A DNA stretch of 64,000 nt from an uncultured bacterium (lineage in GTDB: Bacteria > Cyanobacteriota > Vampirovibrionia > Gastranaerophilales > Gastranaerophilaceae). The position numbers and the translations under genes are program-made. The stretch's first letter is position 1; the number at the start of each line of letters is the position of its first letter. Below, piece by piece: positions 768 through 12,578 of the stretch. Location: the NCBI GenBank assembly GCA_949290355.1, contig CASERN010000002.1:1-64000 (forward strand), written 5' to 3'. The notes beneath the pieces are model-generated. The model was not told where the DNA came from and did no database searches. It saw nothing but the letters and a program-made list of their open reading frames with translations.

Positions 768-842
768 ATTTTTGGCGGGTGCTTGTATGCAATAGTTTAT
801 GATGGAAGAGTCTTGAAAATCTTATATCAAAATTAAGCTAAA

Positions 843-870
843 TTGGCAACATTTCCTATATTTGTATGAT
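843..870 (+). promoter_or_regulatory. Promoter of the six-gene lipid-type operon
   Basis: TTGGCA (843-848), a 16-nt spacer and TATGAT (865-870) form a good sigma-70-type promoter. The predicted transcript start lies about 30 nt before the first ATG of the operon. No clear Shine-Dalgarno precedes that ATG. Confidence 0.5.
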
Positions 871-908
871 ATACCAACAATTTTTAAAATTATATAATTA
901 AGCTTAGC

Positions 909-1841
909 ATGGAAGAAAAAAATTTAAATATATTTAAACGTTTTTTGATTTATCAAAAAGAAAGATTCCCAATTTTCTCATATGGCTTAATGGTTTTTAC
1001 ATTTACTTTTTCTGCAATGTCATATTCAAAAATTTTAAGAGGAGAGTTAGATTTTTCCTTTGTAACTTTGTTAATTGGCGCATTAACCTCTTTTGGGTAT
1101 TTTTTCTTACTTAGAGTTTTTGATGAGTTTAAAGATGCGGAAGATGATGCAAAATATCGTCCATATCGTGCTGTTCCCAGAGGCTTAGTCTCATTTAAAG
1201 AATTGAAATGGCTTGCAATAATTATAATTGTTCTTCAATTTATTTTAAATGCAGTTTTTATTTCTAAAATGCTTTGGATATGGGGATTAGTAATAATTTA
1301 TATGCTTATTATGGCAAAAGAATTTTTTGTTCGGAGTTGGTTAAGAAAGCATCCTGTTGCATATTTAGTTTCGCATATGATGATTATGCCTGTAATAGAT
1401 TTTTATACAACCGGACTTGATTGGAATAATGCAGAAACAAAATTACCACAAGGACTAATAATATTTTTGATAGTTACTTTTTTAAATGGGATAGTAATTG
1501 AAATTGGCAGGAAAATAAGAACCAGTGATGCTGAAGAAATAGGTGTAGAAACATATTCATACCTTTGGGGCGAAAAAAGAGCTACAATAACTTGGCTGTG
1601 TGTTTTATTCACAACATTTATTTTTGCAAATATAGCTTGTTTTTATGCAGGATTTGGTAAAATGACATTTTTATTTTTAATAATATTTTTGGTTATTTGT
1701 GGATATCCTGCAATAAAATTTCTTAAAAATAGAAAACAAGCAACAGCGGCTAAACTTGAAACAATGGCAGGAATTTGGACATTGGGCATGTATTTGTCTT
1801 TAGGTGGTATTCCAATGATATTACACATTATAGGTGGTTAA
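909..1841 (+). CDS. UbiA-family prenyltransferase-like membrane protein
   Basis: 310-residue polytopic membrane protein. UbiA enzymes move a polyprenyl group from its diphosphate to an acceptor inside the membrane. Visible support is the first Asp-rich motif, D72-E-F-K-D76-A-E-D-D80, followed by the basic stretch RPYRAVPRG, and a weaker second site near SDAEEIGVETY followed by GEKRA as in many members. About eight hydrophobic helices separate these. The acceptor cannot be told from sequence. It is first of six genes and its TAA abuts the next ATG at 1842, so co-transcription is near certain. The UbiA fold is likely; membership of the quinone, heme or chlorophyll branch is not supported. Confidence 0.75.
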   Translation: MEEKNLNIFKRFLIYQKERFPIFSYGLMVFTFTFSAMSYSKILRGELDFSFVTLLIGALTSFGYFFLLRVFDEFKDAEDDAKYRPYRAVPRGLVSFKELKWLAIIIIVLQFILNAVFISKMLWIWGLVIIYMLIMAKEFFVRSWLRKHPVAYLVSHMMIMPVIDFYTTGLDWNNAETKLPQGLIIFLIVTFLNGIVIEIGRKIRTSDAEEIGVETYSYLWGEKRATITWLCVLFTTFIFANIACFYAGFGKMTFLFLIIFLVICGYPAIKFLKNRKQATAAKLETMAGIWTLGMYLSLGGIPMILHIIGG

Positions 1842-4211
1842 ATGAATAAAAAAATAGTTGGTGGAAAAGCTTATAATCTTGATATTTTAACAAAAAATGG
1901 GATAAATGTTCCAAAATGGTTTGTCGTAAATTCAGCTGATGATAATTTTGAGATTGATGAAAACAAACTATATGCTGTTCGTTCTTCTGCAGTCGGTGAG
2001 GATGGAAATAAAAAATCTTTTGCAGGTCAAATGGAAAGTTATTTATATGTTAAACCTCAAGAAATAAAAGCGCGTATTCAAGATGTAATTGATTCTGCAA
2101 ATTCAGATAGAATAAAGTTTTATAGAGAACAAAACAATATATCGGATGATATAAAAGTTTGTGTAATTATTCAGGAAATGATAAACTCTGATGTTTCTGG
2201 CGTCGTGTTTTCATCTAATCCGATAACAGGAAAAAGAAATGAAATTGTAATTTCAAGTGTTTTTGGTCTTGGAGAAGGTCTTGTATCAGGTGAATTAAAC
2301 GCAGATACTTATACTATTGAAAATGATAAGATTACAAAAAATATTATCGGAAAACCATATAAAATAGTTTTTGATAAAGAAAAGGGCATTGGTACAAAAC
2401 AAATTGAAAACGAAGCTCCGACAGCACAAACTCTAACGGATAAACAAATAAAAGAACTTGTTAAAAAAACAAAAGAAATAGTTGATATATATGGTAAACC
2501 GCAAGATATAGAATGGGCTTATGAAGATGGTATTTTATACATTTTACAAACAAGACCAATTACGACACTGGAAAACATTCCTGATAAATCACAGAAGGAA
2601 GTTATTTGGGATAATTCAAATATTATTGAAAGTTATTCCGGAGTTACCACTCCGTTGACATTTTCATTTATAAAAGATGTATATACCGAAGTTTATAAAC
2701 AATTTCTTTTGATTATGGGGGTTGAACAAGAATTAATAAAAGAAAATGCTGATATTTTTCAAATGCTCGGTTTAATCGAGGGGAGAGTATATTACAATTT
2801 ACTTAATTGGTATAGACTTTTGCGACTTATGCCAGGATATGAAATTAACGCAGGTTTTATGGAATCAATGATGGGAGTTAAACAAAAACTTAATCAAATT
2901 CCTAAAGTCAAACCAAGTAAAAAAAATAAATATATAAGACTTTTTAATCTTTTAAAATCTTTAATATTTAACCTTTTTACACTACCAAAAGAAATCGAAA
3001 AGTTTTATAAACACATAGATATAACACTTTCTCCATATGAAAACGGGAAATTAAAAGGTAAAAGTGCAAACGAACTTATAGATATTTATTTCGAATTAGA
3101 GTCAAAATTAATGAAAAAATGGCAAGCACCTTTAGTTAACGATTTTTATGCAATGATATTTTACGGACTTTTGAAAAAATCATTGTTAAAAGTTGACTCA
3201 AATGGTACTTTGCAAAATGATTTATTAACAGGTGAAACAGGCATAATTTCAACAGAACCGATAAAATGTATCAAGCAAATTTCAAATAAAATATGCAAAG
3301 GAGAAAAGGTCGATTCAGATATAAAAGAGTTTATTCAAAAATTCGGCAATCGATGCATTGGAGAATTAAAACTTGAAACAATTACTTATAAACAAGACCC
3401 ATCACTTTTAAAATTCATTATTAATTCATACGTCAAACAGGGAATTATTGATATTGAAAAAGAATCCCAAAGGGAACAAGAAATTAGACGTAATGCAGAA
3501 AAAATCGTAAAAGAAAAAATTAAAAATCCATTCTTTGGTATTATATTAAAAAATACTCGCCAAAGAGTTAAAAACAGAGAAAATCTTCGTTTTGAACGTA
3601 CGAGATTATTTGGTTTAGTTAGAGAAATATTTTTAGAACTGGGTAAAAATTTCGCTTACGAAAATATTATTGAAACTCAGCGTGATATTTTCTACCTGAC
3701 AAAAGAAGAAATTTTCAATTATGTATGTGGAACATCTGTTGATATTGATTTAAAAACTATAATTAAAAATCGTAAAGAAGAATATGAATTTTTTGAAAAA
3801 AAGAATCTGCCAGACAGATTTACAACGTACGGAGCCGTATATAAGGCAAATCAATTCATTGCGAATGATATTGCTACTAATATAAAAGGAGATTTATCAG
3901 GTATCGGTGCTTGTGCAGGTATTGTCAAGGCAAAAGTTAAAATTATTCACTCTGTTGAAGAATCCGAAGGATTGGAAAATTGTATAATGGTTGCTGAGCG
4001 AACAGATCCCGGTTGGGTCCCTTTATTTCCGATTAGTAAAGGAATTTTGGTCGAGCGTGGCAGTATATTATCCCATAGCGCGATTGTAGCAAGAGAAATG
4101 GGAATTCCTGCAATAGTCGGGATAAACAATCTTTTATCAACATTAAAAGACGGAGATGAAGTTGAAATGGATGGTTCAACTGGAAAAATAAGGATAATCA
4201 GAAATGAGTAA
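1842..4211 (+). CDS. PEP-synthase/rifampin-phosphotransferase-like dikinase
   Basis: 789-residue soluble protein with an N-terminal ATP-grasp domain: AVRSSAVGED at 45-54, SGVVFSSNPITG near 119-130 and DIEWAYEDGILYILQTRPI near 222-240. The C-terminal swivelling phosphohistidine domain has GSILSHSAIVAREMGIPA, with His745 as the expected phosphorylated residue. The roughly 450-residue middle lacks any PEP/pyruvate TIM barrel I can recognise. The layout therefore matches rifampin phosphotransferase (ATP domain, substrate domain, His domain) rather than true PEP synthase. Such enzymes transfer the beta-phosphate of ATP to an alcohol, releasing AMP and phosphate. Given its neighbours I infer a lipid or prenyl alcohol substrate; antibiotic inactivation is the main alternative. 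Confidence 0.75.
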   Translation: MNKKIVGGKAYNLDILTKNGINVPKWFVVNSADDNFEIDENKLYAVRSSAVGEDGNKKSFAGQMESYLYVKPQEIKARIQDVIDSANSDRIKFYREQNNISDDIKVCVIIQEMINSDVSGVVFSSNPITGKRNEIVISSVFGLGEGLVSGELNADTYTIENDKITKNIIGKPYKIVFDKEKGIGTKQIENEAPTAQTLTDKQIKELVKKTKEIVDIYGKPQDIEWAYEDGILYILQTRPITTLENIPDKSQKEVIWDNSNIIESYSGVTTPLTFSFIKDVYTEVYKQFLLIMGVEQELIKENADIFQMLGLIEGRVYYNLLNWYRLLRLMPGYEINAGFMESMMGVKQKLNQIPKVKPSKKNKYIRLFNLLKSLIFNLFTLPKEIEKFYKHIDITLSPYENGKLKGKSANELIDIYFELESKLMKKWQAPLVNDFYAMIFYGLLKKSLLKVDSNGTLQNDLLTGETGIISTEPIKCIKQISNKICKGEKVDSDIKEFIQKFGNRCIGELKLETITYKQDPSLLKFIINSYVKQGIIDIEKESQREQEIRRNAEKIVKEKIKNPFFGIILKNTRQRVKNRENLRFERTRLFGLVREIFLELGKNFAYENIIETQRDIFYLTKEEIFNYVCGTSVDIDLKTIIKNRKEEYEFFEKKNLPDRFTTYGAVYKANQFIANDIATNIKGDLSGIGACAGIVKAKVKIIHSVEESEGLENCIMVAERTDPGWVPLFPISKGILVERGSILSHSAIVAREMGIPAIVGINNLLSTLKDGDEVEMDGSTGKIRIIRNE

Positions 4212-5304
4212 AGGGATTGAAGCACGAGCAAAATTTAATAAAATAAGATATGCAAACTGTTGGGAAGATCCTGAACTCTTACTTGAGGTATTTGATAATG
4301 GGAAAAAGTACATATCTATAGGTTCTGCCGGAGATAATTCACTATCATTGCTGGTTAAAAATCCCGAACTTGTCTATGCAGTTGATTTAAGTATTCCACA
4401 AATTGCATGTTGTGAACTAAAAAAATATGCAATAAAATTTCTGGATTATGAAAGCTTTTTGAAACTTTTAGGTTTTAAAACTTGCAATAGTCGTCTTGAA
4501 ATCTATGCATCTATCAAAGAAAATTTGAATTTGCAAAGCAGATATTATTTTGAACATAATCCTAAAATAATCAAAGATGGGATTATTCAACAGGGGAAAT
4601 TTGAACATTATTTTCAACTTTTTGCAAATAAAATTATGCCATTAGTTCATAATCAGAAGAATTTAACCGAATTATTTTTACCAAAATCTATTCAAGCTCA
4701 AAAAATGTTTTATGACAAAATCTGGAATAATTGGAGATTTAAGGCTTTATTTAAAATTTTCTTTAACAAATTTGTCATGGGACGTTTAGGCCGAGATAAG
4801 GAATTTTTTAAATATGTTGATACTGCAATGATTTCGAAAAATATCAAAGAACGAACAGATAGGGCTCTTCGAGATGTTCCGACTTGGAATAATCCGTACG
4901 TAAATTATATTTTATTAAACAATTTTGATTATGCTCTTCCTCATTACGCTAAACAAGAAAATTTTGACATAATAAAACAAAATATTGATACTTTGAAAAT
5001 TAGAATAGGCACAATAAATGAAGTTGCCAAAAATTCCGGTATAAAGTTTGACGGTTTTAATCTGTCTGATATTTTTGAATATATGGATAAGGACTTGTTT
5101 AAAGAAGTTTCTTCTCAATTATTGTCTGTGTCTAATATTGGAGCAAAATTTTGCTATTGGAATATGATGGTAGAAAGGCGAATTTCTCAAATTTTACCTG
5201 AAAACTTTGAGTATAAAAAAGAGTTATCACAAAAGCTTTATTTGAAAGACAAAGCCTTTTTTTATAAAGATTTTATTATAGATGAGGTTATAAAAAATGA
5301 CTGA
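4204..5304 (+). CDS. BtaA-like (DUF3419) aminocarboxypropyl transferase
   Basis: 366 residues. RYANCWEDPELL (15-26) and GSAGDNSLSLL (40-50), followed by YAVDLSIPQ, match the start and SAM-binding loop of the DUF3419/BtaA family. BtaA transfers the 3-amino-3-carboxypropyl group of S-adenosylmethionine to diacylglycerol in betaine-lipid synthesis. No BtaB-type N-methyltransferase is present here, so a finished betaine head group is not implied. The start overlaps the dikinase stop by 8 nt, indicating translational coupling. Family assignment is good. The acceptor (a diacylglycerol, prenyl-glycerol or other lipid alcohol) is unknown. Confidence 0.75.
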   Translation: MSKGIEARAKFNKIRYANCWEDPELLLEVFDNGKKYISIGSAGDNSLSLLVKNPELVYAVDLSIPQIACCELKKYAIKFLDYESFLKLLGFKTCNSRLEIYASIKENLNLQSRYYFEHNPKIIKDGIIQQGKFEHYFQLFANKIMPLVHNQKNLTELFLPKSIQAQKMFYDKIWNNWRFKALFKIFFNKFVMGRLGRDKEFFKYVDTAMISKNIKERTDRALRDVPTWNNPYVNYILLNNFDYALPHYAKQENFDIIKQNIDTLKIRIGTINEVAKNSGIKFDGFNLSDIFEYMDKDLFKEVSSQLLSVSNIGAKFCYWNMMVERRISQILPENFEYKKELSQKLYLKDKAFFYKDFIIDEVIKND

Positions 5305-6421
5305 TTTAATTTGTGGAAGTATAATTTCTTTAATATTTTTGTTATTTTTTATTATTGCAGAGATTTTCTATAAAAAAGGATTAAATGTTGAAATAACAAG
5401 GAAATTTGTTCATTTTGCAGGAGCATTTGTTACTATATTTTTCCCATTTATTTTCAAAACACACTGGACAGTCTTGATTTTGGCAGTATTTTTTTGTGGA
5501 GTAATGTTAATAACAAAAAAAACAGGAACATTACCATCTGTACATGCAGTCGAAAGAAAATCTGACGGAGCGATTTATCATCCTATTGCAATATATATTT
5601 GTTTTTTGTATTCACAGTTTTTAAATCAACCCTGGTTTTATGTTATTTCAATTTTAATTCTTGGAGTCTCAGATGCTTTTGCAGCACTTGTTGGAAAAAA
5701 TTACGGTATAAATGAATATATCGTAGAAGTGGGTAGTAAAAAAACGATTGAAGGTTCATTTACATTTTTTTTAACATCATTTTTAATAACTCATTTAATT
5801 TTACTTTTAACAACAACTATCGGCAGAGTAGAATCCGTTCTGGTTGCACTTTTGATTGCAATAATTATAACTATATTTGAAAGTGTTAGCTTAAAGGGCG
5901 CAGATAATTTATTTATACCAATTGGAACAATGTTTATTTTATCAAAAAATGTCCAGCCTACAATTGAAGGGTTAACATTCCAATTGGCAGTATTAATTGC
6001 ATTTCTGGCAAGTTATTTAGTTATAATGTTTCCTTATAAACGAATAGGCTTTTCAGGTGTTATTCTGTTGGGTTTGATAAATTATATTATCTGGACATTA
6101 CTAGGTAATATTTGCGCTGTAATACTTATAATATTTTCATTGCTTTGCGCAAAAACTGATATTATACTGAATTATGATTGTGATGAGGCTGACGCTTATA
6201 GGGTAAGACCAATATTTTATATTTTAGCGGTTCCTGTTGCTTGTGCATTTTTGAATAATTTTATTGGCGCAAAAATAATTTATCCTTTTATAACTTCAAT
6301 AATTTGTGAAGGTTTTATTATTAAAACAAAATTTTTTAACGGAGATTTGAATAAAGGTTTATGGATAACATCAGTAGTTTCGTTAATAGTTTTAGGGGCA
6401 AGTTATGTATTTATCAAATAG
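5297..6421 (+). CDS. Dolichol/phytol-kinase-like (CdsA-type) membrane protein with extra C-terminal half
   Basis: 374-residue, very hydrophobic protein with about ten predicted helices. The first 200 residues resemble CTP-dependent dolichol/phytol kinases and phosphatidate cytidylyltransferases: EITRKFVHFAGAF near the start, then LGVSDAFAALVGKNYG and a short loop with GSKKTIEGSFTFFLTS. These are the nucleotide-binding loops seen in the SEC59/VTE5 group. Residues beyond about 205 add further helices and the motif CDEADAYRVRP, which I do not recognise. The gene overlaps its neighbours by 8 nt upstream and 17 nt downstream. A role in phosphorylating or CTP-activating a lipid alcohol is inferred from family and context. 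Confidence 0.65.
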   Translation: MTDLICGSIISLIFLLFFIIAEIFYKKGLNVEITRKFVHFAGAFVTIFFPFIFKTHWTVLILAVFFCGVMLITKKTGTLPSVHAVERKSDGAIYHPIAIYICFLYSQFLNQPWFYVISILILGVSDAFAALVGKNYGINEYIVEVGSKKTIEGSFTFFLTSFLITHLILLLTTTIGRVESVLVALLIAIIITIFESVSLKGADNLFIPIGTMFILSKNVQPTIEGLTFQLAVLIAFLASYLVIMFPYKRIGFSGVILLGLINYIIWTLLGNICAVILIIFSLLCAKTDIILNYDCDEADAYRVRPIFYILAVPVACAFLNNFIGAKIIYPFITSIICEGFIIKTKFFNGDLNKGLWITSVVSLIVLGASYVFIK

Positions 6422-7346
6422 TAAAGATGAATTTTTGAAATTTCCGAAAGAATTATACAGAAATGATCCGTTTTATACAACGCAATCTGAGGATGTCTCG
6501 GATTGTGAAAAACTTTTTGTAGTAAAAGAAAATGAAAAAATTCTTTGTCGTTTAGGATTTTTTGCCAATGGACAGTTCGGTTTTTTTGAAGCTGAAAACA
6601 ATTTGGAATCAGTTAAGTTTTTATTTGATCAAGTAAAAACTTACGCCAAAACAAAAGGCTATGACTACTTAATCGGACCAATTAACGGTTCTACTTGGAA
6701 AAAATACCGAATTACTCTGCCATCAAATAATCCTCCATTCTGTCTTGACAATTATAACAAACCTTATTATGCGGAATTGTTTGAAAATTGCGGATTTGAA
6801 ACAATTGCCAATTACACATCTTCAATTTGTCGTAACTTAAACAAAGATTACTCAAGACTTGAAAAATTTTCATCAATTTTTGAAAAAAAAGGTATAAAAA
6901 TTCGCAAATTTAATCCTGAAAAATTTGAAGAAGATATCAGAAAAATTTACAACATTTCAGTAGATAGTTTTGTGAACAATTTTCTTTATACACCAATAGA
7001 ATTTGAAGATTTTTATAAAATGTATGAACCGGCAAAAAGTTTTTTAAATCCAGAGTGGGTTTTGCTTGCGGAAAATATGGATAATGAAGCAATTGCTTTC
7101 ATATTTGGTTTTGATAATTTATACAATAAAGATAAAAAATCACTTGTTATAAAGACATTAGCACAAATTTCTGATTACAAATATCGTGGAATAGGATCCT
7201 ATCTGGTAGAATATTTACATCAAAAAGCTCAACTTGCAGGGTATGATAGTATTATTCATGCACTTATGCATAAAAATAATGTATCGACTAATATTCTGTC
7301 GGGCGAACTCTACCATAAATATAAACTTTATGGAGTTAAATTATGA
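6405..7346 (+). CDS. GNAT-like N-acyltransferase
   Basis: 313 residues with the two-part look of a double acyl-CoA N-acyltransferase fold. The early part has FLKFPKELYRNDPFY, then FFEAENNLESVKFLFDQV, YDYLIGPINGSTW and PYYAELFENCGFE, a pattern seen in a widespread family of uncharacterised GNAT-like proteins. The C-terminal part has YRGIGSYLVEYLHQKA, resembling the acyl-CoA pyrophosphate-binding motif (Q/R-x-x-G-x-G/A). It overlaps both neighbours. In this context it could acylate the amine of the aminocarboxypropyl group made by the DUF3419 protein; this is inference only. Confidence 0.6.
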   Translation: MYLSNSKDEFLKFPKELYRNDPFYTTQSEDVSDCEKLFVVKENEKILCRLGFFANGQFGFFEAENNLESVKFLFDQVKTYAKTKGYDYLIGPINGSTWKKYRITLPSNNPPFCLDNYNKPYYAELFENCGFETIANYTSSICRNLNKDYSRLEKFSSIFEKKGIKIRKFNPEKFEEDIRKIYNISVDSFVNNFLYTPIEFEDFYKMYEPAKSFLNPEWVLLAENMDNEAIAFIFGFDNLYNKDKKSLVIKTLAQISDYKYRGIGSYLVEYLHQKAQLAGYDSIIHALMHKNNVSTNILSGELYHKYKLYGVKL

Positions 7347-8827
7347 TAAATAATATTGTTGAAATTTTATTTGAAAATGCTGAAAAGCATCCTGACAAAC
7401 TTGCTATTATCCATAAAAATGAAAAGATAACTTACGGAAAATTAGTGCAAGAGGTAAAAGATTATGCACAGTATTTTTTATCAAAAGGTATAAAAAAAGG
7501 TGATAATATACTAATTTTTGTTCCAATGACAATTGAACTTTATAAAATTCTTGCCGCTGTTTTTTATGTTGGGGCAACAGCAGTTTTTGTGGATGCTTGG
7601 GCTGATAAAAATAGACTTAATCAAGCTTTAACTATTGTTCCCTGTAAAGCATTCATTGCTTGTCCGAAAGCCTTTATATTGAAACTAATGAGCAAAAAAG
7701 TATTTAAAGTAGGAATAAACATCATATCAGGAACTATTCATAAACATAAAAGCATACTCCCAATTGAAACAGTAACACCTGACTCAACTGCACTTATAAC
7801 CTTTACAACAGGTTCAACAGGACTTCCAAAAGCAGCTAAAAGAACACACGGATTTTTGCTCGAGCAGCACTATGTACTAAAAAAACACTTAGCACACTCC
7901 TTTGATGATGTTGACTTAACAAGTCTACCTGTTTTTATTCTTCACAATCTTGCTTGTGGTATAACTTCTGTTATTCCTGATTTTAGTTCCCAAAAACCAT
8001 CAGATATTAACCCTGATAAAATTTTAAAAGATATAAAAAATAATAATGTTACTACTTCTGTTGGCTCGCCAAGATTTTATGAAAAACTTGCTGAATTTGG
8101 AAAAATTAAAGGTTTGAAACGAATTTTCACTGGAGGAGCTCCCGTTTTCCAAAAGAAAGCTAAACTTTTGCAGGAAAAGTTCAACGATTGTGATATAGAA
8201 ATAGTTTACGGATCAACTGAAGCTGAACCGATTACTTCAATTTCAGCAAAAGAATTGCTACAATATAAAGGTTATGTTAAAGACGGTTTGTATGTTGGAA
8301 AACCAATTGAAGATATTAATGTAAAAATTATAAAACCGTCAGATGAACCGATAAAAGATTTTGAAAGCACTTGGCTTAGTACAGGTGAAATCGGTGAAAT
8401 TTGTGTTGAAGGAAAGCATGTCTTAAAAGAATATTATAATAGTGATGAAGCACAAAAATTTGCAAAAATTAACTACCAAGGACAAGTTTGGCACAGAACA
8501 GGTGATGCTGGATATTTGGATAATGATGGAAGATTATTTCTTATGGGTAGAGTGAAAAACCGATTTGTTCATAATAATAAAGATGTTTATGTATTCCCGA
8601 TAGAAAATGCTTTACTTGAGAGTGAGGGTATTGAAATCGGAACGGTTCTAAAAATTGATGAACAAATTATACTTGTTGTAGAAACGAAAATTCCACAGAA
8701 AAAACTTGAACAAGAACTTAAAAATTTTGGATTTAATTTTGACAAATTTATAATCACACAAATTCCTCGAGACCCGAGACATGATTCAAAAATTGATTAT
8801 GATAAGTTAAAAAAAATCCTCTCATAA
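7343..8827 (+). CDS. Acyl-AMP ligase (OleC-like ANL superfamily)
   Basis: 494 residues. The ATP-binding loop TFTTGSTGLPKAAKRTHG lies at 153-170, followed by YGSTEAEPI and TGDAGYLDNDGRLFLMGR, the standard A3/A5/A7 motifs of ANL adenylating enzymes. A fatty or similar acid would be activated as acyl-AMP. The stretch LTSLPVFILHNLACGITSVI, and the way it replaces the usual segment, reminds me of OleC-type ligases, but no OleA/B/D partners are nearby. Its ATG overlaps the preceding stop (ATGA). It is the last gene before a shared bidirectional terminator at 8814-8838. Confidence 0.75.
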   Translation: MINNIVEILFENAEKHPDKLAIIHKNEKITYGKLVQEVKDYAQYFLSKGIKKGDNILIFVPMTIELYKILAAVFYVGATAVFVDAWADKNRLNQALTIVPCKAFIACPKAFILKLMSKKVFKVGINIISGTIHKHKSILPIETVTPDSTALITFTTGSTGLPKAAKRTHGFLLEQHYVLKKHLAHSFDDVDLTSLPVFILHNLACGITSVIPDFSSQKPSDINPDKILKDIKNNNVTTSVGSPRFYEKLAEFGKIKGLKRIFTGGAPVFQKKAKLLQEKFNDCDIEIVYGSTEAEPITSISAKELLQYKGYVKDGLYVGKPIEDINVKIIKPSDEPIKDFESTWLSTGEIGEICVEGKHVLKEYYNSDEAQKFAKINYQGQVWHRTGDAGYLDNDGRLFLMGRVKNRFVHNNKDVYVFPIENALLESEGIEIGTVLKIDEQIILVVETKIPQKKLEQELKNFGFNFDKFIITQIPRDPRHDSKIDYDKLKKILS

Positions 8828-8838
8828 AGAGAGGATTT
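8814..8838. terminator. Bidirectional terminator between convergent genes
   Basis: Perfect 10-bp stem AAATCCTCTC / GAGAGGATTT with a 5-nt loop. It straddles the end of the acyl-AMP ligase gene and lies just past the end of the minus-strand Aas-type gene. A and T runs flank both sides, so it can end transcripts from either direction. Confidence 0.8.
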
Positions 8839-8843
8839 TAAAT

Positions 8844-11800
8844 TTATAAACTCTCATACCATTCTTTTAAGTCTTTTCTTTTAACTTTTCTTGTTGAAGT
8901 CTTTGGCAACTCATCACGATGAAGAACAACAACCGTCGGAGTTTTGTAAGGTGCTAAGTTTGCTTCTGATAGACGTTTCACTTCTGCTTCAAGCTCATTT
9001 TGAATTTCCTCGTCTGATTTTTTTGCAAGTTCATCAGATGGTGTTATAATTACTCCGACTTCTTCTGTTCCTGCTTTATTTCCAGATTTTATCATTAAAG
9101 ACATTACGCAAAGCTCTTTAATAAGTTCTGATGTTTCTAATACTGCTTCAACTTCTTCTGGGAAGATTTTTTTGCCACCACCAAGAACTATCATGTTCTT
9201 AATTCGACCTGTAATTTTAATAAATCCTTGTTTGTCAATTTCACCAATATCGCCTGTATGAAACCAACCGTCTTCATCAATAACTTCTTTTGTCATTTCT
9301 GGTTTACCATAATATCCTTGCATGACGTTTGGTCCTGTTGCAAGAATTTCACCGTTATCAGAAATTTTTACCATTACCGAAGGCAAAGGTTGTCCGACTG
9401 TTCCTAATTTTGAATGACCATAACGATTAGTTGAAATTGTCGGAGAAGTTTCTGTTAAACCATATCCTTGAAATATAGGAACACCGATTCTGTCAAAAAA
9501 TTCTGCAACATTATCCTCTAAAGGAGCACCTCCGCAAATAAAACACTCTAATCTTCCCCCCAAACCATCAATTACTGATTTAAACATTAAACGGCGAATT
9601 CTGCGCGGCATAAATCTTGCAAAAGAATAAAGTATTTTAAACACTTTTTGTGCAATTTCAGGCTGCTTTTTTATCTGTTTATCAATACTGTTTTTAAGCA
9701 TTTTTGCAACAAGGGGAACTACAATCATATTTGTAATTCCTTTTTCTTTCATTGTTATTGCAAGTTCTTTTGGATTTAAGGATTTTATGTAAACAATTTT
9801 TGCCCCCATATAAAGCATGCCAAAGAATCCGCAATCTAACTCAAGCAAATGATTTAAAGGCAAAATTGAAAGTAGAGTATGCTCATGTGTAATTTTGAAC
9901 ATAGTTTCAAAATCACGAAGTTGAGAATATATGTTTCCAAAACTAATCATAACACCTTTTGGATTACCCGTTGTGCCTGATGTATAAACAATCAGTGCTG
10001 TTTCATCCAATGATCTTGGTCTTCCCAAATCTTTTTTTATATCCGTTTCCAAATCAGATACCGACGGAATTTCTTTATGTTCCCTTTCTTCGTTATCTAG
10101 AACAAATATTTGCTCAATGGATTTTACATTTTTTTCAACTTCAATAGCATGTTCTAGGTAATGACTTGAACAAAACAAAATCCTAGGGTTGCAGTCGTTT
10201 AATATATGCGTATGCTCTGGTACTGTAAGTTTAACATCTAAAGGAACCGTAATTGCACCTGTTTGAATAGATGCAAACATTCCGACTGAAAATTCAGGTC
10301 TTGATTCACAAATTATGGCAATTCTATCACCACGTTGTATTTTTATTGTTTCAATAAGATAATTTGCAAATTTTTTAGCTCTTCTTGAAATTTCAAGATA
10401 ACTTAATTCCTCATACCCATCTTTTGTTTTTAAAGACAATGCTTTCACCTGTCCGTAAATATCGCTTTTTTCTTGCATTAAATCTAAGAAATTTGAATGC
10501 AATTTATGATTAATATTATAAAAAGCACGTCGTTCAAGTGATTTTTTCATAAAGTTTACACGAATCTGCAGTTCATGTGCAATTTCTTTTTCATCAGAAT
10601 GAAAGTCAGATATAGGTTGACCAAATTGAATAACAATTGTATTAAATAACTTAGGGAATTTTCTGGTTTTGCCCCAAGTTTCAAAGCCTCCCTGTATGGC
10701 AAAAGGAATAATCGGAGCATTAGTTTCTTTTGCCATTATTCCGACTCCTCTGTTAAATTTACAAATTTCACCATTTGGCGTAAACTTGCCTTCAGGAAAA
10801 ATAATTACAGCTTCTCCTGATTTTAATTTTTGATTGGCACTTTCAATTGCTTCTATGCCTTTACCAAATTTTAAAGGTAAAACATTAAAATATTTTAATA
10901 AATGCCTTACTACAGGAGTTTTAAAAGCTGCTGGACCTGTCACGAACCACAGTTGACGATGTGTAGCCATTTGTACAATAAATGGATCTAAATGTCCTGT
11001 ATGGTTACCGGCAAGGATTACTTTACCTTTTTTGGGGATATTCTCGGCTCCTTCAATTCTGTATCTAAAAAGAAGCACGAAAAGCTGCCCCAATGTGGCT
11101 TTTAATAAGAAATATCTGAAACTTTTATCAAATATTAGCACCAGTGCGGCAAGTAAAAATGAAAATAATGCAATTCCTTTAAATACATTCAAAGGATTTA
11201 TAAAACCGATAATAGTTGCAACAATCACTGTTCCAATTAGAAAGCTGAAAGTACTAGCTGTTAATTGTAACCCAAATATTTTACCTCTGACATTGTCTGG
11301 GGTAATTTTTTGTAAAATTGTATCAAGCATAACAATTATAACAGCATCAGCCATTCCGATTGGAATAAGCCACATCCAAGCACTGTTGATACTTTTACAT
11401 AATGGGGCAGTAACAAGAGCAAGACACAGTATAATAAATCCGCTTACAAATAAATGTGGAATTCTCATTATTCTTGCAAAATATATTGTCACTGCCATAC
11501 CTGTAATAACACCTATGCCTAAAAGGGTTCTCAGATAAGTTAAATCACTGAATGCTAGCCCATAATAATCGGTAATAAGAGCATTTAAACTATTTGAAAA
11601 TACCGCAACTATAAATTGCAGACAAATAGCCAGTCCGACTAGATATAATACTTTTTTATGTTTTTTTAAATAATTTAATGCTACAGCCATATCATTAATT
11701 TTTTCTTTTGTGGTAAATATATTTTGTTTAATCGAGAATTTGATTAATGCAGTAAAAATTGCTCCAATTAAATACATTCCACCAATTATTAAAAATGCTT

Positions 11801-12314
11801 TGTCATATCCAAGAGTTATCAAATAATTTGTAGCAAAAGCTCCAAATAATAAAGCAATAACCCCAATTGAAGAAGTAAATGCGTTTGCAAATTTTAATTG
11901 CTTATTTTTAACAATATTTGTAATTGCAGACATTTTAGCAGGATAGAAAAATGCGGCTCCAATACCCAAACAAAAAACAATAGTGTAGATCAAATTCTGA
12001 GTTAATTGAGGAAGAAAGGAAATCATTATACAAGTTGTTACGGCCCTAAAAAGACAACTTATTGAAAGGATTGCTTTTCTGGAAAATCTGTCACAAAGTA
12101 CTCCCGAAAACGGACTTACTAAAAATTGAGGTAAAAGGAATACAAAAAACATTATAGCGATAGATTTTCCTGTATTTCCCGAAATTTGCAAAAGAATAGA
12201 CGCAAACAAAAATTGAACAATTGCATCTGCAAAATGGGAAAAAAGTTGGCCCAAAAATAATTTATCAAATTCAAAATTTGCGAATGGTCCAAACTTTTTC
12301 TTAATTCCATTCAT
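8844..12314 (-). CDS. LplT-Aas fusion: MFS transporter + acyltransferase + acyl-ACP/CoA ligase
   Basis: 1156 residues in three modules. Residues 1-400 are a 12-helix major-facilitator domain like lysophospholipid flippase LplT. Residues 405-600 are a PlsC-type acyltransferase with NHTGHLD (437-443, the HX4D catalytic pair) and FPEGKFTP. Residues 620-1156 are an ANL adenylating domain with VYTSGTTGNPKG (776-787), GYGLTETSPTIS and TGDIGEID. This fits import and re-acylation of lysophospholipids. In E. coli the transporter and the Aas enzyme are separate genes; here they are fused. The 3' end faces the lipid-type operon, suggesting a local lipid-metabolism region. Confidence 0.88.
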   Translation of the reverse strand: MNGIKKKFGPFANFEFDKLFLGQLFSHFADAIVQFLFASILLQISGNTGKSIAIMFFVFLLPQFLVSPFSGVLCDRFSRKAILSISCLFRAVTTCIMISFLPQLTQNLIYTIVFCLGIGAAFFYPAKMSAITNIVKNKQLKFANAFTSSIGVIALLFGAFATNYLITLGYDKAFLIIGGMYLIGAIFTALIKFSIKQNIFTTKEKINDMAVALNYLKKHKKVLYLVGLAICLQFIVAVFSNSLNALITDYYGLAFSDLTYLRTLLGIGVITGMAVTIYFARIMRIPHLFVSGFIILCLALVTAPLCKSINSAWMWLIPIGMADAVIIVMLDTILQKITPDNVRGKIFGLQLTASTFSFLIGTVIVATIIGFINPLNVFKGIALFSFLLAALVLIFDKSFRYFLLKATLGQLFVLLFRYRIEGAENIPKKGKVILAGNHTGHLDPFIVQMATHRQLWFVTGPAAFKTPVVRHLLKYFNVLPLKFGKGIEAIESANQKLKSGEAVIIFPEGKFTPNGEICKFNRGVGIMAKETNAPIIPFAIQGGFETWGKTRKFPKLFNTIVIQFGQPISDFHSDEKEIAHELQIRVNFMKKSLERRAFYNINHKLHSNFLDLMQEKSDIYGQVKALSLKTKDGYEELSYLEISRRAKKFANYLIETIKIQRGDRIAIICESRPEFSVGMFASIQTGAITVPLDVKLTVPEHTHILNDCNPRILFCSSHYLEHAIEVEKNVKSIEQIFVLDNEEREHKEIPSVSDLETDIKKDLGRPRSLDETALIVYTSGTTGNPKGVMISFGNIYSQLRDFETMFKITHEHTLLSILPLNHLLELDCGFFGMLYMGAKIVYIKSLNPKELAITMKEKGITNMIVVPLVAKMLKNSIDKQIKKQPEIAQKVFKILYSFARFMPRRIRRLMFKSVIDGLGGRLECFICGGAPLEDNVAEFFDRIGVPIFQGYGLTETSPTISTNRYGHSKLGTVGQPLPSVMVKISDNGEILATGPNVMQGYYGKPEMTKEVIDEDGWFHTGDIGEIDKQGFIKITGRIKNMIVLGGGKKIFPEEVEAVLETSELIKELCVMSLMIKSGNKAGTEEVGVIITPSDELAKKSDEEIQNELEAEVKRLSEANLAPYKTPTVVVLHRDELPKTSTRKVKRKDLKEWYESL

Positions 12315-12578
12315 TTTATAACTCCTCTATGAAGCTGCCACCTGGTTTAATCTTAACAATGTTAACATTTATATGCAAATTTATGAAATATTTTTACAAG
12401 TACAGTAAGCTGTTATAATAATATAAATACCAATGTTTAATGCTTTTAGTATTGCATTTCAATCATATTGTTATATAAATCTTTATTTTTAGGGAATAAA
12501 ATATTCCGCATATTCCTGCAATTGCAAGTAATAGGGAAATAATTGCTATTGAAAATCTTATTTTGTATATGTGTTTTA
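12315..12578. other. Intergenic, possible hydrophobic peptide remnant
   Basis: No normal gene is visible. On the minus strand, an open frame directly after the aldo/keto reductase stop encodes a hydrophobic helix (about 30 residues, including IAIISLLLAIAGICGIFYS) but has no ATG, GTG or TTG start in frame. It may be a remnant. A weak A/T-rich promoter region for the upstream-facing gene is all else I see. Confidence 0.3.

Follow-up and report, generated by a model that had tools for sequence, protein, structure and literature searches.

A window of 64,000 nucleotides, the whole stretch of DNA analysed here (positions 1 to 64,000 of contig CASERN010000002.1), carries near its start a cluster of six genes, designated A to F. 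The window genome (G000) is a Gastranaerophilales-type Cyanobacteriota genome of 1.85 Mb, and the nearest named homologues of protein C occur in metagenome-assembled genomes (MAGs) of the Gastranaerophilales/Melainabacteria. An original prediction, made from the sequence alone, had described the cluster as a one-strand operon for a lipid pathway, and the arrangement it gave is borne out: all six genes lie on the forward strand at 909-8827, with neighbours abutting or overlapping by 4-17 bp. The families it proposed are upheld by Pfam for A, B, C, E and F, while D matches CTP_transf_1 below the cut-off and has invariant motifs. The features of the locus are as follows.

843-870, + strand: candidate promoter TTGGCA-16-TATGAT (10/12 matches)
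909-1841, + strand: A, UbiA-superfamily prenyltransferase, 310 aa (PF01040, 7.4e-15; motifs kept across loci)
1842-4211, + strand: B, rifampin-phosphotransferase-like ATP dikinase, 789 aa (PPDK_N, 1e-62; PEP-utilizers, 1.5e-24)
4204-5304, + strand: C, DUF3419/BtaA-like aminocarboxypropyl transferase, 366 aa (PF11899, 5.2e-58)
5297-6421, + strand: D, membrane protein resembling dolichol, phytol and diacylglycerol (DAG) kinases (CTP_transf_1, 0.0016, sub-threshold)
6405-7346, + strand: E, YghO-family GNAT N-acyltransferase, 313 aa (GNAT, 2.6e-4; family hidden Markov model, HMM)
7343-8827, + strand: F, acyl-AMP/CoA ligase, PRK09274/OleC-like, 494 aa (PF00501, AMP-binding, 1.8e-49)
8813-8839, between convergent stops: hairpin terminator with an 11-bp stem
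8844-12314, - strand: LplT-Aas type fusion of major facilitator, acyltransferase and acyl-ligase parts (Pfam domains), convergent with the cassette
828-12453: horizontally shared unit, cassette plus LplT-Aas (DNA identity with genome G040)

The terminator, claimed earlier, is credible on the basis of its stem and its position. The single promoter that had been claimed with it is plausible, but cannot be told from chance, as promoter-like matches in the AT-rich region number 50 against 47 expected.

Conservation and transfer of the cassette

With C as bait, the exact order A-B-C-D-E-F was recovered at 35 loci (33 once double fetches were removed) in the Gastranaerophilales, Sphingobacterium, Parapedobacter, Saprospiraceae and other Bacteroidota and rumen Kiritimatiellota/Lentisphaerota, as well as on a plasmid of the alphaproteobacterium Roseinatronobacter sp. 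S2. Two further loci have the order C-D-E-F-A-B, other Cyanobacteriota carry the partial sets A-B-C or C-D-E-F and Bacillota MAGs the variant E-B-C-F; A adjoins B in most loci. So exact a recurrence, at 35 loci in several phyla, is beyond chance, and the possibility that the six genes are never found together elsewhere, raised with the original prediction, is thereby set aside. The cassette was not found described in the literature searched (gene set, DUF3419, BtaA with UbiA, Gastranaerophilales lipids), in agreement with the earlier statement that no characterised pathway has this set, and the UbiA neighbourhood described in the eLife lipocone paper differs from it. Thus, the six genes are a real, conserved and previously undescribed cassette.

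In a tree of C built from 67 homologues, the Gastranaerophilales, rumen Kiritimatiellota/Lentisphaerota and Bacillota form one clade (support 94/92), hereafter referred to as the gut clade, and the C clades stand apart from homologues of 24% identity. The variant E-B-C-F in the Ruminococcus MAGs L081 and L083 is accompanied by a second AMP-ligase; in L083, the places of A and D are taken by a UbiA-like fragment of 157 aa, an APH/choline-kinase-like gene and a gene of the QueC-like amidotransferase type. On a Rhizobium plasmid (L135:1698-5176), a DUF3419 gene is flanked by genes for a CoF-synthetase-like ligase and for a hypothetical protein, neither homologous to E or F, and no other cassette gene was found beside it at this locus.

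The distribution among close relatives is patchy, a close C gene being present in 8 of the 239 genomes of the family and, among the same-genus genomes listed, in the window genome only. The 11.6-kb unit at 828-12453 shares 93.7% DNA identity over 11,628 columns with G040, a genome of another genus, whereas the IspG, CdsA and PgsA-like proteins of the same two genomes are 86%, 68% and 73% identical, respectively; this disparity argues for horizontal transfer. The LplT-Aas protein of the window is likewise 95% identical to that of G040 and 81% identical to that of the congener G032. The cassette and LplT-Aas have therefore moved recently between genera as one piece, of which LplT-Aas is a part, and the convergent gene, earlier cited as support for a lipid theme, gains weight from this co-transfer.

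The surroundings of the unit include remnants of mobile elements. Upstream of the cassette, a broken transposase gene of the phrog_310 type lies at 137-464 of the window, and an intact homologue of 375 aa (L166:2446-3573) is located in G040 just past the other end of the shared unit. Genes for a phage integrase and a HipA-type protein are found upstream of the G040 cassette (L167:11758-14123).

Enzyme families and the exchange of the lipid kinase

The motifs RxxDExKDxxxD, which is the Asp-rich motif of UbiA, and ExxRKxRxPxxE, which is characteristic, are conserved in A across the loci; PF01040 and the conserved DExKDxxxD together place A in the UbiA superfamily. B combines an ATP-binding domain with a swivelling domain whose catalytic histidine, His745 (SH745xAIVxRE), is invariant, as in the Rph/phosphoenolpyruvate (PEP) synthase superfamily, and its AlphaFold2 (AF2) model has Listeria Rph (5hv1) as its best PDB match, over the full length (E 1.6e-40). 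These two domains, the invariant histidine and the structural match indicate that B probably phosphorylates a hydroxyl. B scores 306 bits with the curated NCBIfam Rph model, whose cut-off is 999, and the identity to the Rph/PEP synthase family is about 22%; this low identity and the conserved motifs of its own middle domain make a substrate other than that of Rph likely. B is probably equipped with its own substrate domain.

C belongs with BtaA, the characterised DUF3419 member, which transfers the 3-amino-3-carboxypropyl group of S-adenosylmethionine (SAM) to DAG (PMC3972451). This kinship would suit a betaine lipid (diacylglyceryl-trimethylhomoserine, DGTS) or a homoserine lipid made by a variant of BtaA, the remaining genes being unrelated passengers. 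However, the cassette differs from the BtaA/BtaB pathway: an N-acyltransferase of the GNAT type stands where BtaB would, a lipid kinase, UbiA, dikinase and acyl ligase are added, and the remaining five genes accompany C at 35 loci. The betaine pathway was rejected, as no BtaB-type N-methyltransferase is encoded among the six cassette genes (the rest of the genome was not searched for BtaB), and such an origin for the cassette is very improbable.

The family HMM of E matches Escherichia coli YghO (141 bits) and a YghO-like protein encoded on a plasmid of Acidisoma (137 bits), the gene for the latter adjoining Spt-like aminotransferase, short-chain dehydrogenase/reductase and sterol-desaturase genes. 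From these matches, E appears to share a family with putative ceramide synthases of bacteria and is likely to be an N-acyltransferase acting on a lipid amine. F matches NF006754 (6.6e-114, under the cut-off of that model) and is predicted to be a ligase of the PRK09274 group acting on fatty acyl substrates. A comparison with the Caulobacter phosphosphingolipid pathway (Spt, bCerS, CerR, CpgB, CC_1161), which includes an N-acyltransferase, a lipid kinase and a CdsA-like protein, shows a likeness in fatty-acid activation, N-acylation, lipid kinase and the CdsA-like and cytidine diphosphate (CDP)-alcohol steps (PMC11324152; PMC10331486). Unlike that pathway, the cassette would take its amine from SAM and not from serine, and its UbiA, its dikinase and the HMG-CoA reductase discussed below have no counterpart there. 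A canonical sphingolipid pathway was rejected, since the defining Spt and CerR are both absent from the cassette genes (the whole genome was not searched for Spt).

D shares the motifs RK..H, SDxxAAL, KxxEGS (with G153) and GxDNLxIP with the cytidine triphosphate (CTP)-dependent lipid kinases VTE5, dolichol kinase and Dgk1, and the residues E32, RK..H39, D126, G153, E195 and GxDN..P208 are invariant. It differs from them in its sub-threshold Pfam score and, in many lineages, in a C-terminal transmembrane extension, D of the Bacteroidota consisting only of the 225-residue kinase core. The extension received no support from Pfam, and a fusion with DUF92/VTE6 was rejected on this ground. The AF2 model of D (pLDDT 87) gave weak Foldseek matches to CdsA and CarS (5guf). 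In the alignments used for the two structure predictions, one plasmid-record row and a few near-duplicate rows were left out.

The gene that replaces D is informative about its function. In the D-less B-C-E-F cassettes outside the Bacillota (L030, L036, L037, L039), a DAGK_cat/YegS_C gene is present in all four, and it occurs in none of the D-bearing cassettes; D was not found genome-wide in the four hosts. A kinase of the LCB5/DAGK type phosphorylates ceramide in Caulobacter (PMC10331486). In view of this and of the displacement of D by DAGK/YegS genes, the lipid that D phosphorylates is most likely similar to DAG or ceramide. A trio of DAG kinase, C and E lacking A and B (L086, L088 and L090; Aminicenantes, Acidobacteria and Planctomycetia) is perhaps the simplest form of the cassette chemistry. 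At L030:4228-6417, a reading frame of 729 aa fuses the front of an HMG-CoA reductase to a DAG-kinase domain with the reductase tail in another frame, which is a frameshift or an assembly error and not a proven fusion.

The same kinases bear on a pathway in the style of tocopherol salvage, in which D would phosphorylate a prenyl or phytyl alcohol, B add a second phosphate and A prenylate a small acceptor decorated by C, E and F. Phytol salvage uses two kinases and the logic of a UbiA enzyme, and the resemblance of D to phytol and dolichol kinases, the UbiA nature of A and the adjacency of A and B are in accord with it. The exchange of D for kinases of a family whose substrates are DAG or ceramide and not prenols, the match of B to rifampin phosphotransferase, a maker of monophosphates, and the presence of a reductase for which salvage has no need nevertheless make it unlikely, and a lipid kinase is the preferred assignment for D.

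An orphan HMG-CoA reductase

A class I 3-hydroxy-3-methylglutaryl-coenzyme A (HMG-CoA) reductase (HMGR) is encoded inside or beside most cassettes outside the gut clade. In hosts such as Sphingobacterium and three Cyanobacteriota genomes, it is accompanied by ispG of the methylerythritol phosphate (MEP) pathway, and no mevalonate diphosphate decarboxylase was found by a test that did not extend to the archaeal-type alternative mevalonate route; genomes with this combination include G304, G306, G307, G309, G031, G028 and G033. Hosts with the decarboxylase have a second HMGR, which belongs to class II wherever the comparison was made. The cassette HMGR was consequently rejected as an ordinary part of the mevalonate pathway, as either the decarboxylase is missing or a second HMGR is present, and it seems to have a dedicated but dispensable role in supplying mevalonate or an analogue.

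HMGRs fall into classes I and II. The cassette enzymes retain the Glu, Lys, Asp and His residues of catalysis, and DA(A/S)GQN replaces DAMGMN/DAMGAN. A divergent class I group with DA(A/S)GQN as its NADPH motif is distinguishable in MEP-pathway bacteria (L059:2781-4061, L094:7468-8760, L095:3816-5093), including Cyanobacteriota genomes without the mevalonate decarboxylase; judging from this motif, the group may act on a substrate other than HMG-CoA.

A class I HMGR, weak matches of A to models of geranylgeranylglyceryl phosphate (GGGP) geranylgeranyltransferase and the CarS match of D would all be in line with archaeal-type prenyl ether phospholipids, with A as digeranylgeranylglyceryl phosphate synthase and D as a CarS-like enzyme. 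D carries kinase motifs, however, and such a pathway has no use for C, E and F. No GGGP synthase (PcrB) was found in the window genome, and 15 of the 21 cassette genomes likewise lack it; its absence mostly refutes an archaeal-type route, which is very improbable.

The proposed lipid pathway and its weighing

The lipid theme of the original prediction gains support from the exchange of D for DAG kinases, the CdsA and CDP-alcohol-phosphotransferase genes included in the Sphingobacterium operon, the MMPL exporter genes near several cassette variants, the kinship of E with YghO and the LplT-Aas gene. The HMGR, the horizontal transfer and the kinase exchange are findings beyond its reach. For the CTP activation proposed there, the operon of the window has no gene of its own; CdsA and a CDP-alcohol-type enzyme are encoded elsewhere in the window genome. 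Taken together, A to F very probably form a coherent lipid pathway.

In the pathway that we infer, in every reaction, step order and product alike, F would activate a fatty acid, and A and B would build or activate an acceptor, A most likely by putting on an isoprenoid tail and B by phosphorylating a hydroxyl of the acceptor or an intermediate, as in rifampin phosphotransferase. C would attach the 3-amino-3-carboxypropyl group from SAM to a hydroxyl of a lipid, yielding a homoserine ether with a free amine, which E would acylate. D, or a YegS/DAG-type kinase in other lineages, would phosphorylate a remaining lipid hydroxyl, and CdsA- and CDP-alcohol-type enzymes, from the operon in Sphingobacterium and from elsewhere in the window genome, could then process the phosphate further and may finish a head group. 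In the non-gut lineages, the dedicated HMGR would feed mevalonate or an analogous reduced block to this pathway and not to general isoprenoid synthesis, and LplT-Aas would probably flip and re-acylate the product or a by-product.

The order given earlier (aminocarboxypropyl transfer, then N-acylation, with lipid phosphorylation) is plausible. The specific chemistry, an aminocarboxypropyl ether lipid that is N-acylated and then phosphorylated to give a ceramide-like amphiphile with two tails, is put forward tentatively, with slightly less than an even chance of being right. More tentative still is the proposal that the product represents a new lipid class, an isoprenoid-containing, N-acylated, phosphorylated homoserine ether, with HMGR diverted to a building block and the unit mobile between phyla and gut genera. 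If true, this would add a class of membrane lipid common to gut Gastranaerophilales, rumen Kiritimatiellota and cultured Sphingobacterium and would account for HMGR genes in MEP-pathway bacteria that otherwise seem pointless or misannotated; the pathway is testable in a culturable host.

The exporter genes could also be read differently, with the cassette making a secreted acylated natural product, such as a signal or an antimicrobial, B acting as a PigC-like phosphorylation-driven condensing enzyme and MMPL as the exporter. B does score with the PigC and RedH models, MMPL genes lie near several cassettes and the distribution is patchy and mobile. Nearly all cassettes, however, have a lipid kinase, which with the CdsA and CDP-alcohol transferase of Sphingobacterium and the travelling LplT-Aas points to membrane lipids, and no nonribosomal peptide or polyketide synthase gene was seen in the neighbourhoods listed; a natural product is therefore improbable.

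Some observations count against the membrane-lipid pathway proposed here. HMGR is absent from all the members tested of the gut clade, so the HMGR step must be dispensable or replaced, and the Bacillota loci lack D, a DAG kinase and a full-length UbiA. Foldseek gave no PDB match for D with E < 0.001. C may use an acceptor other than DAG, its identity to BtaA-like proteins being only about 25%, and the GNAT and AMP-ligase families can also use small molecules. Finally, LplT-Aas in congeners also adjoins a different operon.

The operon in question was seen in two congeners without the cassette, G032 (L154:7761-11308) and G711 (L156:6711-9576), and is of a lipid type in both. Each holds a CTP_transf_1 gene and a PlsC-like acyltransferase, to which the G032 operon adds a PF12147 methyltransferase and a flavodoxin-domain protein and the G711 operon a CDP-alcohol transferase. 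The spot beside LplT-Aas thus seems to accommodate alternative lipid pathways.

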